Assembly: GCA_016937295.1 (NCBI GenBank)
Contig: JAFGWF010000092.1
Span: 1 to 48,552, forward strand
Direction of reading: 5' to 3'
DNA: 48,552 bases
Origin: Bacteroidales bacterium
GTDB taxonomy: Bacteria; Bacteroidota; Bacteroidia; Bacteroidales; UBA1556
This document shows, piece by piece, positions 13,195 to 18,088 of the stretch (positions within the stretch are counted from its first letter, which is position 1; the number at the start of each line of letters is the position of its first letter). Under the pieces are notes generated by a model, which was not told where the DNA came from, searched no databases, and saw only the letters and a list, made by a program, of their open reading frames with translations. Both the position numbers and the translations under genes were made by a program.

Positions 13195-13224
13195 TTTGCG
13201 ATTATTGATGTTTATATATTTTTG
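13195..13224 (+). promoter_or_regulatory. Putative promoter of the TonB-dependent receptor operon
   Basis: TTTG (13195-13198), 18-nt spacer, TATTTTTG (13217-13224), an exact TAnnTTTG match. Confidence 0.6.
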
Positions 13225-13250
13225 CAATTATTACGTTAATTATGATATTT

Positions 13251-15617
13251 ATGAGAATTGTTATTACCCTTTCATTATTCTTGTTTTTTGCATCCATAGC
13301 AATGGATATTACTGCTCAAGGGGTGTTTAAAGGAAAAGTTATCGACTCGAAAACGAAAGTTGCATTAGTGGGTGCTAGTCTTAAATTAGATGAAATAGCT
13401 ACCGGAACAATCACTGATGGCGAAGGAAAGTTTTCCTTTGAAAACTTGAAATTCAAATCCTATGTTTTATTAGTAAAATATCAAGGTTATTATGATGTGG
13501 TTCAAAAGATAAATGTTGAATCGTTTGTTAATCAAGAGATTATAATTGAGATGCGATTGAATATCAGAGAATTGACCACTGTTGAAATTCGCGATGATAA
13601 GATTGTTAGTCATCCCTATTCAAAGCAAACAATCTCGCGGGTTACACTCAGTCAGGAGCCGGTTAGAGATATTGGCGATTTTTTACGATCCATTCCCAAC
13701 GTTAGTGCGATTCGCAAAGGTGGGGCAAATCTTGACCCTGTAATCAGGGGGTTTAAGTTTGACCAGCTCAATGTTCAGGTTGATAATGGCCTTTCGATGG
13801 AAGGCGGCTGCCCAAATCGCATGGATCCAACCTCTGCCCACGTTGAGGCGTCTGATATCGAAGCTATCGAAATTTATAAGGGTCCCTTTGCATTGAGATA
13901 TGGTCCGGTAATGGGTGGTGTGATTAATATGCTCACTATCAATCCGCGTCCTTACGAAACGTTTAGTGTTTTTGTGAAAGGTAATATGGGCTATGAAAGT
14001 AATTGGAATGGAATGCGGCAGCATGTAACGGTGCTTGGTGGTAATCAAAAGATATTTTTTGCACTTACCGGAAACGATGCCCGATACGGTAATTATTCGG
14101 ATGGAGACGGGAGTTTGGTAAAATCTGATTTTCGAAAAATGGGTTTCACCGGTAAATTGGGTTATGCCCCTGCTAAAAATCATCGAATTATTTTTTCTGC
14201 TTCTAAGTTTTATGCTCGTGACGTGGCTTTCACTGCTCTGCCAATGGACGAACGCACCGACAACACAAGTTTGTATTCACTCGATTATCAAGCAAAGAAT
14301 ATTTCTAACACTATTTCCTCTTTAGAGTTTAAGGCGTATGCTTCGCTCATCAATCATGTGATGGACAATAATGAGCGTCCATTTGGCGACACTACTTCTT
14401 CCATTGCTGCAATCGATGCTTTGAAGTATGGTTATCGCGCAGAAGCAGGGTTGAATATTGCGAAAGGCCATTTGTTTGTTGGTACTGATTTTTACAGAGT
14501 GGAGAAGGATGGACAGCGGGATAAAATCATGTTAAGTCAATTCCCGATGCAAATCGGTTTGATACCTCTAAAAGTCGAAAACTTATGGAATCAGGCAGTT
14601 ATAACCAATTTGGGTTTATTTGGCGAGTACAAACGCGAATGGACTATGTGGGAAATGGTTGTGGCAATCCGTGGGGACTTTAATCAAGCATATTCCGACA
14701 GCATTTCTTTATTGAATATGATGGGAGTGGATCTTTTAGGAACTCCTGCGGATAGCACTTCCTCGGAGTTGATTAATTTTAGTTTTAGTGCTGGAGTGAC
14801 CAGAAATATTTCAGAATTTTTTACCTTAGGAGCTTCTTTTGGTCGCGGTGTTCGGAGTCCGGGAATGATTGAACGATTTATCGTTTCATTACCAACAGGT
14901 TACGACAATTTTGAATACATTGGGAATCCAAATCTTAAACCCGAAGCTAATAATGAATTCGATTTGGTTTTACGCTTCAATAAATCTCAAATTGGAGCGG
15001 CTGAATTCACCGTTTTCTATAGTTTTATTCAAGATTATATTGGAGGTGAATTTATTCCAAAAACTATTCAAAAACCTTTGACACAGAGTGTGTTGGGGGT
15101 AAAGAGATTTGAAAACTTAGGAAATGCAAATCTTGCCGGTTTCGAGTTTGGATACAATTCTCCAACCTTTTGGAAAATGATGGTGAAGTTTTCAGGCGCA
15201 TATACTTTTGGAGCAATCAAAGAAATTGAAGTGCTGGAGTTTGACGCAAATGGAAATGCTATAAACGCAGAAATGGTTTCTAATGATCCAATCGCTGAAT
15301 TGCCTCCTTTTGAAGCTAAACTTTCGATTGGTTATAAATTATTTGATATGAAATGGATACCTAAAGCGGATTTTCGATATGTTGCCGAACAAAATCGGGT
15401 TAGTGAAGCAAGCTTGGAGCCTGTTTCTCCATCTTTTTACCTTATTAATGTCTCTATGACTTATCGTTTCAGCGATTACCTTGATGTCGCTTGTGGCATT
15501 AATAATTTGCTCGATACGGAATATACCGAGCACCTGAATAGGAGAGTGGTTGGCACCGATTATCGCATTCCTGAACCCGGAAGAATTTTGTATTTAAATG
15601 TGAATTATAACTTTTAA
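13251..15617 (+). CDS. TonB-dependent receptor, OprC/NosA-like (putative copper receptor)
   Basis: N-terminal carboxypeptidase-like domain (KGKVIDSKTKVALVGASLKLDEIATGTITDGEGKFSFENL), plug (SQEPVRDIGDFLRSIPNVSAIRKGGANLDPVIRGF), CPNRMDP and HVMDN motifs, C-terminal barrel ending in NYNF. Start 13251 preferred over 13242. Confidence 0.9.
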   Translation: MRIVITLSLFLFFASIAMDITAQGVFKGKVIDSKTKVALVGASLKLDEIATGTITDGEGKFSFENLKFKSYVLLVKYQGYYDVVQKINVESFVNQEIIIEMRLNIRELTTVEIRDDKIVSHPYSKQTISRVTLSQEPVRDIGDFLRSIPNVSAIRKGGANLDPVIRGFKFDQLNVQVDNGLSMEGGCPNRMDPTSAHVEASDIEAIEIYKGPFALRYGPVMGGVINMLTINPRPYETFSVFVKGNMGYESNWNGMRQHVTVLGGNQKIFFALTGNDARYGNYSDGDGSLVKSDFRKMGFTGKLGYAPAKNHRIIFSASKFYARDVAFTALPMDERTDNTSLYSLDYQAKNISNTISSLEFKAYASLINHVMDNNERPFGDTTSSIAAIDALKYGYRAEAGLNIAKGHLFVGTDFYRVEKDGQRDKIMLSQFPMQIGLIPLKVENLWNQAVITNLGLFGEYKREWTMWEMVVAIRGDFNQAYSDSISLLNMMGVDLLGTPADSTSSELINFSFSAGVTRNISEFFTLGASFGRGVRSPGMIERFIVSLPTGYDNFEYIGNPNLKPEANNEFDLVLRFNKSQIGAAEFTVFYSFIQDYIGGEFIPKTIQKPLTQSVLGVKRFENLGNANLAGFEFGYNSPTFWKMMVKFSGAYTFGAIKEIEVLEFDANGNAINAEMVSNDPIAELPPFEAKLSIGYKLFDMKWIPKADFRYVAEQNRVSEASLEPVSPSFYLINVSMTYRFSDYLDVACGINNLLDTEYTEHLNRRVVGTDYRIPEPGRILYLNVNYNF

Positions 15618-15627
15618 AATATTGATT

Positions 15628-16023
15628 ATGAAATATATAGTGTTTTTCGTTTTGTTAATTATTGCCTTTTCTTCCTGCCAAAAAGACAACGACGAAGTTC
15701 AGGTTGTTTATGCAATAAAAGGTTTTTCACAGCCCTATAAGGTTGTTTATGCCATAGGCGACTTAAATAAAACAGAGGTGTTTAACATTGATCCTGCGGG
15801 CTCCACTTCTTATGAATGGAAAGCTGAACTACAGGCCGTACCCGGCAAAGTAACTTATTTATACGTGGAATCCGATGAAAACATTTCCAATGTTTCGGGT
15901 TTTCATGCCACTATTTTTGTTGAAGGAAAAGTTTTTAGACGTGCTTATGATTATGATGGTACTCGACAAATGCCTAACGATACCACTTTTTACATCAAGC
16001 AGTTTGGCACTATACCTTTTTGA
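15628..16023 (+). CDS. Small putative lipoprotein downstream of the TonB-dependent receptor
   Basis: MKYIVFFVLLIIAFSSCQKDND (lipobox-like SSC), about 10 bp after the receptor stop on the same strand. Track start 15622 is TTG; ATG at 15628. Confidence 0.8.
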   Translation: MKYIVFFVLLIIAFSSCQKDNDEVQVVYAIKGFSQPYKVVYAIGDLNKTEVFNIDPAGSTSYEWKAELQAVPGKVTYLYVESDENISNVSGFHATIFVEGKVFRRAYDYDGTRQMPNDTTFYIKQFGTIPF

Positions 16024-16207: not shown

Positions 16208-18088
16208 ATGAAAACTTTCATCAAGATAATTACTATCTTTATTAGCTATTATTCCTTTGGGCAATCGACCCCATCTAATTTTGACTTTATAACTTCAACT
16301 GCCGCAAATACAAGTTATTCGGTTAATGGATACGGCAGTAGTTCGTATCCTAACTCAGCCACCTATAATGTTGTTTTTGGTTATTCTAATGCAACAACGC
16401 AATCCAACGACTACAAACTGGCTTCCTTTGAGGTGAATAGTAATACCTACAATCCAATTACTTTGCCTAATGGTGAGTGTTATAGTAAGGTTGTGGTAAA
16501 TAGGATGGTATTCCCTTCCTCACCTGTTACCGATTTGGGAAAGCAAACAATATTCTTTGAGTTGGGCTCCAAGAGTGGTACCAACTTATATATGACACCC
16601 TCATATACCAATATTCAAGAAGCTGTTAATACCCGAATTTTGAATAGGGGCGGTGATAATGTTTTTTCCAATACAGGTGGACAAACTCTAAATAATATCG
16701 AACGTATTGACTTAATGATTGAGGATGGCGTATTTACTCCGGACAATACGCAATCTGGTTTTTTGATAAATGAACGCGGTGGCAATGATGAATTTATTGT
16801 GGCTGCCATCACAGGATTAGATGCTAATGGTGATGTTAGTAGTGTTGGAAGTTTAGTTTCAATTGCAACTTCGGATTGGGGAAATACAGGATATTCTACC
16901 ACTACAACAGTTTTTCAAAGAGGTACAACGGATACTTATATGCGACCAAATCAAGATTTGACAAGCCAGAATATTTATGGTGTTTTTATTTCATATCAAG
17001 ATTTGGGAATAGCCAACAATACTACAATTTATGGTATCGCCATTTTCCCTGGTGATGTTAACTCATCCATGGATTTAATTGGATTGTCAGATGTGCCTTG
17101 GGATACAGATGCTGACAGTTATGGCTCCGGTGGTTTAGATTTAATGGGCGGTGGTGGATATTTTGCTACTGCAGATGTTATTGTAACTGATCTCCAAACC
17201 ACAATCACTTCCAATACGGCTATTCCTTCGGATGGCGACATCGTGGATATCACAGTTCGGGTTGATAATAATGGGCCAATGTCAGATGATAATATTTCTG
17301 TAACTGCCACAATTCCTGATGGTTATATTTATCAAAATTTGGTTTCAGGATATACTGGTTCAGTATCTGTCGTCGGTTCAACTATAACTTGGACTTTTCC
17401 AGCACTTGCTCTAAACGATTTTGAAGAATTGACTTTTCAAGTAGAGGCAGAAGCAATAGGCGATCGCACATTTACTTCAACGGTTTCCGGTACTAAAACA
17501 GATGTCGTTCCCGGAAACAATCCTGATAACTTGGAATTATTGCTGGATACGGAACAATCTACATTGCCCGTAAGTTTGATTTCTTTTAAAGGTTTTCAAG
17601 ATGAAAATTCTGTTAATTTAGAATGGAAAACCGCTTCCGAAATAAACAATCACTATTTTGAAGTTCAGCGTTGGAACGATCAGCTTGGTTTTGAGACCAT
17701 TGGTGAGGTTGAAGGAAATGGAACTTCGAATATTCTGCACCAATATCTATTTCAAGATTTGAATCCTGTTTTGGGTGTGAATTATTACCGACTTGTTCAG
17801 CATGATTTTGATGGTGCTTCAACTGTTTTTCCTAAAATTGCAGTAAATGTGGACGGAGGAATTAATGATATTCATGTTTTTCCTAATCCAATTATAGATA
17901 AAGTCAGTTTTTCTAATTTTAATCGCATTTCTTCCATTTTCCTTTACGACATGCGTGGCAAAATGCTGATGTCATTCAATCAAGATTCGTATGATTATTT
18001 GGATTTATCGGGGTTGGGAAAAGGTGTGTATTTTTTAGAAATTCAAAGCGGAAGTGAAAAAATAATGCGGAAGATTATTAAGTTATAA
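16208..18088 (+). CDS. Secreted protein with DUF11-like repeat region and T9SS C-terminal sorting domain
   Basis: Signal peptide; DUF11-like segment (VRVDNNGPMSDDNISVTATIPDGYIY); T9SS CTD (IHVFPNPIIDKVSF...YDMRGKMLMSF...LDLSGLGKGVYFLEIQSGSEKIMRKIIKL). Confidence 0.85.
   Translation: MKTFIKIITIFISYYSFGQSTPSNFDFITSTAANTSYSVNGYGSSSYPNSATYNVVFGYSNATTQSNDYKLASFEVNSNTYNPITLPNGECYSKVVVNRMVFPSSPVTDLGKQTIFFELGSKSGTNLYMTPSYTNIQEAVNTRILNRGGDNVFSNTGGQTLNNIERIDLMIEDGVFTPDNTQSGFLINERGGNDEFIVAAITGLDANGDVSSVGSLVSIATSDWGNTGYSTTTTVFQRGTTDTYMRPNQDLTSQNIYGVFISYQDLGIANNTTIYGIAIFPGDVNSSMDLIGLSDVPWDTDADSYGSGGLDLMGGGGYFATADVIVTDLQTTITSNTAIPSDGDIVDITVRVDNNGPMSDDNISVTATIPDGYIYQNLVSGYTGSVSVVGSTITWTFPALALNDFEELTFQVEAEAIGDRTFTSTVSGTKTDVVPGNNPDNLELLLDTEQSTLPVSLISFKGFQDENSVNLEWKTASEINNHYFEVQRWNDQLGFETIGEVEGNGTSNILHQYLFQDLNPVLGVNYYRLVQHDFDGASTVFPKIAVNVDGGINDIHVFPNPIIDKVSFSNFNRISSIFLYDMRGKMLMSFNQDSYDYLDLSGLGKGVYFLEIQSGSEKIMRKIIKL

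Follow-up and report, generated by a model that had tools for sequence, protein, structure and literature searches.

A Bacteroidales TonB-dependent receptor of the OprC/NosA type retains the four copper-ligand residues of OprC and probably imports ionic copper

The closest described relative of the receptor analysed here is OprC of Pseudomonas aeruginosa (PDB 6fok, 6z8q and others), whose crystal structure identified C143, M147, H323 and M325 as copper ligands, and in which the exchange C143A abolishes Cu(II) binding (PMC8610252). OprC has been described as conserved in many Proteobacteria, and NosA of Pseudomonas stutzeri carries the same motif, with just some residues of the methionine track being conserved even there (PMC8610252). 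In case of the Bacteroidota, one example has been noted from sequence, namely G2EC70 of Bizionia argentinensis, which is described as a TonB-dependent receptor with 21.8% identity to OprC and a CxxxM-HxM motif, with CcoG, NosL and a P-type ATPase listed for transcription units close by (PMC11213822). An OprC-type transporter in Bacteroidota is therefore already on record, and the gene described here, which resembles the Bizionia receptor as far as the published description goes, is a further example. Published copper measurements on a Bacteroidota member of this type were not found in the literature. A different TonB-dependent copper importer is CrtA/BfrG of Bordetella pertussis, which forms a separate sequence cluster, accepts chelated Cu(II) and uses other binding residues (PMC12914433).

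The receptor gene is located at positions 13251-15617 (+) of the window, i.e. the whole analysed stretch of 48,552 nucleotides from a Bacteroidales bacterium. Its frame is open over 789 codons including the stop codon and encodes 788 residues; an ATG at 13242, 9 nt before 13251, is the earliest in this frame and could be an alternative start. Pfam recognizes a CarbopepD_reg-like N-terminal domain (PF13715, 52.8 bits versus a cut-off of 32.2; residues 27-111, nt 13329-13583, +), a TonB-dependent receptor plug domain (PF07715, 56.8 bits; residues 120-219, nt 13608-13907, +), and a TonB-dependent beta-barrel. The carboxypeptidase-like N-terminal domain had already been proposed in a sequence-only reading of this DNA, which had also placed a CPNRM motif at 13809-13823 (+) and an HVM motif at 14355-14363 (+), both of which are exact to the base. 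They correspond to residues 187-191 and 369-371, each pattern matches only once in the receptor, and the whole protein contains two cysteines. A promoter-like sequence of the Bacteroidota type, TTTG-N18-TAnnTTTG, is present at 13195-13224 (+), leaving about 17-26 nt to the start codon. As this is one match in the window versus 2.4 expected by chance, it is suggestive only, and the candidate was rejected as indistinguishable from chance.

The two motifs had been likened to the C143/M147 and H323/M325 pair of OprC with its similar local context, and this comparison holds down to the individual alignment columns. In an unguided phmmer alignment, C187, M191, H369 and M371 stand exactly on the columns of C143, M147, H323 and M325, and a separate MAFFT alignment places the ligands on the same four columns. 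CPNRM and HVM are 182 residues apart, as had been counted before, versus 180 residues in OprC, and the local contexts are GGCPNRMD and NHVMDN here versus GACPNRMD and DHIMDN in OprC. In an alignment of the window protein with 18 Bacteroidota homologues that share 87 to 26% identity with it, the four residues are invariant in 19/19 sequences, as are N189, R190, D192, P193 and M332, while CxxxM is absent from four paralogues of the same genome. Because the ligand columns coincide in two alignments, the ligands are invariant throughout, and the paralogues lack CxxxM, a chance match of the motif to OprC can be regarded as excluded.

Among proteins of solved structure, P. aeruginosa OprC is the best relative in a phmmer search of PDB sequences (E 1.8e-40), followed by PirA (1.6e-13). 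The best NCBIfam model is TIGR01778 (TonB-copper) with 244 bits, which is below the curated equivalog cut-off of 472.45, and the receptor can thus be classed as a relative of the OprC type that is outside this equivalog. An AlphaFold2 model calculated from the 19-row alignment (mean pLDDT 79.8, pTM 0.74, i.e. moderate confidence) retrieved OprC chains at places 1-28 of the PDB matches in a fold search (E 3e-44 to 2e-39), with a TM-score of about 0.86 over OprC, and the next match was the haem receptor PhuR (1.5e-36). Both proteins share the fold with plug and barrel, the CPNRM and HxM columns, an equivalent of Met286, and a conserved C-terminal region (YTEHLN, PEPGR), whereas they differ in that their identity is only about 22%, and in that the match to OprC begins at residue 134 of the window protein, with no CarbopepD domain aligned.

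The position of PhuR as next structural relative, together with the fact that the TonB-hemin model TIGR01785 is the second-best profile match (175.7 bits versus a cut-off of 316.85), could indicate that the receptor imports haem or another soft metal and that the motif is an inherited remnant. We regard this as very improbable, since a remnant would not be expected to keep four ligands and M332 invariant at 26-30% identity, and since copper chaperones are encoded next to the receptors of relatives. As to the profiles themselves, TIGR01785 fails its cut-off and so does the siderophore receptor model TIGR01783 (96.5 bits versus 223.5), and an assignment as siderophore or haem receptor was rejected on these scores; siderophore models are not the best match, in line with the earlier view that this is no siderophore receptor. 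The presence of a phylum-typical CarbopepD domain and of a lipoprotein gene after the receptor gene might also bring to mind a glycan receptor of the SusC kind in which the motif arose by chance, the lipoprotein acting in a SusD-like way. Such a function is exceedingly improbable, as the SusC model TIGR04056 reaches 36.8 bits versus a cut-off of 368 and covers residues 27-212 only, i.e. the N-terminal part, as the lipoprotein is a small beta-sandwich of about 130 residues and not a SusD-like helical repeat protein, and as each ligand of the motif has its counterpart in the alignment with OprC. Profile scores, PDB sequence search, ligand invariance and fold search already contradict it, and a SusC/RagA assignment was rejected for the low TIGR04056 score and the lack of a SusD-like partner, which agrees with the earlier exclusion of SusC.

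In the model, CPNRM is part of a predicted plug loop (pLDDT about 68-70 around residues 181-200), and HVM is part of a predicted barrel strand (residues 355-372, confidence about 91), i.e. both motifs are found in those regions to which they had been assigned from the letters of the DNA. Based on the homology to OprC, we infer that C187 and M191 from the plug and H369 and M371 from the barrel converge on one copper ion. OprC furthermore possesses a silver-binding track of the methionines 286, 339, 341, 343 and 348. The first four of these could be compared in the MAFFT alignment: Met286 is kept as M332 (14244-14246, +), a deletion removes the positions of Met339 and Met341, and serine stands in place of Met343. 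The OprC loop methionines 338, 339 and 341 have no counterpart, and unlike OprC the window protein thus lacks the methionines of the 338-343 loop, which is why the path by which copper enters may differ from that of OprC.

The loss of these methionines suggests a different outer vestibule, and one may therefore consider that the receptor imports carrier-bound copper, the carrier being a metallophore or some small copper protein, instead of the bare ion, and that the four residues handle copper after its delivery. Many TonB-dependent receptors import chelated metal, MbnP-type proteins that are encoded beside relatives of the receptor could serve as carriers, and chelated Cu(II) is the reported substrate of CrtA (PMC12914433). 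We nevertheless find this rather unlikely, because the full four-ligand site is retained, which in OprC binds the bare ion, and because CrtA belongs to a cluster that is distinct from OprC (PMC12914433). An import of ionic copper is preferred: it is highly probable that the gene product is a TonB-dependent importer of the OprC/NosA type that brings this substrate across the outer membrane, and for which we infer copper binding, transport and the direction of flow. In such an importer, a copper ion from outside would be held between C187/M191 of the plug and H369/M371 of the barrel wall, with M332 left as a low-affinity methionine along the entry path. A remodeling of the plug by TonB would then set the copper free in the periplasm, for use by haem-copper oxidases and possibly by the MbnP/MbnH system of copper proteins.

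The gene neighbourhoods of relatives are linked to copper. Within the order, the receptor gene is followed by MbnP and usually MbnH (L036, L038, L039; MbnP in L040), and in L035 MbnP/MbnH are encoded divergently upstream of the receptor. A NosL-like gene comes next after the receptor gene in L095. The description of TIGR04052 gives copper binding as a property of the MbnP family. The genome of the window contains an MbnP and MbnH (di-haem peroxidase) pair on another contig (C15, L061:5767-7708, -), as well as two haem-copper oxidase subunit I genes. In three genomes (G050, G036, G056), the MbnP/MbnH pair is downstream of the receptor, unlike the unlinked pair of the window's genome. The window receptor is flanked by genes that appear by sequence to have housekeeping functions, and copper genes are not adjacent, so that their connection with the receptor is an indirect one in this case. 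Neither the window's genome nor those of its congeners yielded a NosL, and a NosL link was dropped for this genus; the receptor differs in this from NosA, which is tied to denitrification. Together with the profiles, the fold search and the invariant ligands, the copper-linked neighbourhoods of relatives support the proposed OprC/NosA-type receptor of Bacteroidota. In five congeners (L031-L034, L047), the receptor gene follows one gene for a lipoprotein that resembles formylglycine-generating enzyme (by sequence GldJ/GldK-like) and another that looks PorP/SprF-like, and the window is arranged otherwise. In another congener (genome G008, L035:8442-10822, +), the receptor frame is broken by a TGA into ORFs of 527 and 250 codons' worth of residues (aa), due to either a sequencing error or pseudogene formation.

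Receptor relatives were detected at E <= 1e-40 in 9/10 other genomes of the genus and in 11/49 other genomes of the order, and, counting the window's own genome, at E <= 1e-100 in 35/297 genomes of the phylum. The site is readable in 33 of the phylum relatives, 21 of which possess C-P-(N/S)-R-M, HxM and an M332 equivalent, and the window protein belongs to this Cys-bearing group. The remaining 12 form one supported sister clade in a FastTree phylogeny (L116-L126 and L128), with GPxRMD in place of CPNRM, HxM kept, and leucine in place of M332, which is thus lost together with the cysteine. As genes for SCO1-like and PCuAC-like proteins are found downstream of the receptor in two loci of this clade (Pfam-confirmed in L118, and in the same order by sequence in L119), its members may handle copper too, by a changed site.

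A cruR homologue stands ahead of oprC in P. aeruginosa (PMC9426467), whereas the 410-nt region upstream of the window receptor contains no CruR-like leader ORF. Small ORFs that resemble CruR stand before the transporter gene in most other Bacteroidota. At 28 loci, an ORF of 100-200 aa precedes the receptor gene on the same strand, and 27 of these ORFs have a Pro-Pro in their last 13 residues, mostly as FHPP, versus 9/199 other ORFs of that size at the same loci; the 27 loci share descent and do not represent 27 independent events. The 27 ORFs encode 3-10 cysteines each, and the gap to the receptor gene is 29-225 nt. The one exception, at L128, overlaps with the frame of the receptor and is likely to be spurious. 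None of ten tested leader ORFs matched Pfam, and six of these ten had no NCBIfam match either. The 27 loci are L096-L109, L111-L120, L122, L124 and L046 (e.g. L096:6730-7116, +), and the endings are (F)HPP or PPP. These ORFs likely correspond, in Bacteroidota, to CruR, the copper-sensing leader peptide (uORF). Copper-related RAPP/RGPP leader ORFs have been reported to be absent from Bacteroidota (PMC12992588), and an FHPP version would escape such a search.

Only 4 nt after the receptor stop codon, at 15622-16023 (+), a gene begins for a lipoprotein of about 131-133 residues with an SSC lipobox at Cys19. A homologue is encoded directly downstream of the receptor in 12/19 other loci with a detected receptor, including three from other families (L036, L037, L038). 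Pfam and NCBIfam gave no accepted family match. The model is a confident eight-stranded beta-sandwich (pLDDT 87) with weak likeness to MmpS5, and an MmpS-like family was rejected, as PF05423 is under its cut-off in one homologue and the fold match 9mvz has a TM-score of 0.47. Invariant are the Ser-Cys of the lipobox, K21, Y30, Y79, K103, G129 and P132. Since no His, Met or Cys is conserved in the alignment apart from the lipobox, a structural or docking partner appears more likely than a copper chaperone, and the protein would probably be a dedicated periplasmic or outer-membrane partner of the receptor. It could even be that both proteins take up copper as a two-part unit peculiar to one lineage of the order, in which the small beta-sandwich lipoprotein of an undescribed family is an obligate partner that receives copper from the receptor or passes it to MbnP, instead of the methionine-loop entry path of OprC, but we consider this more far-reaching idea doubtful. 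The product of the next gene (16208-18088, +) is a secreted protein that contains a DUF11 domain and carries a sorting tail for type IX secretion (PF18962); among the compared loci, this gene is kept just in that of the closest congener.

The sequence-only reading had thus recognized the receptor type, and had overlooked the published Bacteroidota precedent for the motif (PMC11213822), the absence of the OprC loop methionines, and the conserved downstream lipoprotein gene. What is additional here is this lipoprotein gene without database match, and the CruR-like FHPP leader ORFs in most other Bacteroidota. As the site is strictly conserved in several Bacteroidota families and occurs amid copper genes, the entry of copper through the outer membrane of Bacteroidota becomes directly testable, and the conserved lipoprotein and the CruR-like leader ORFs of relatives add two more uncharacterised genes to test.
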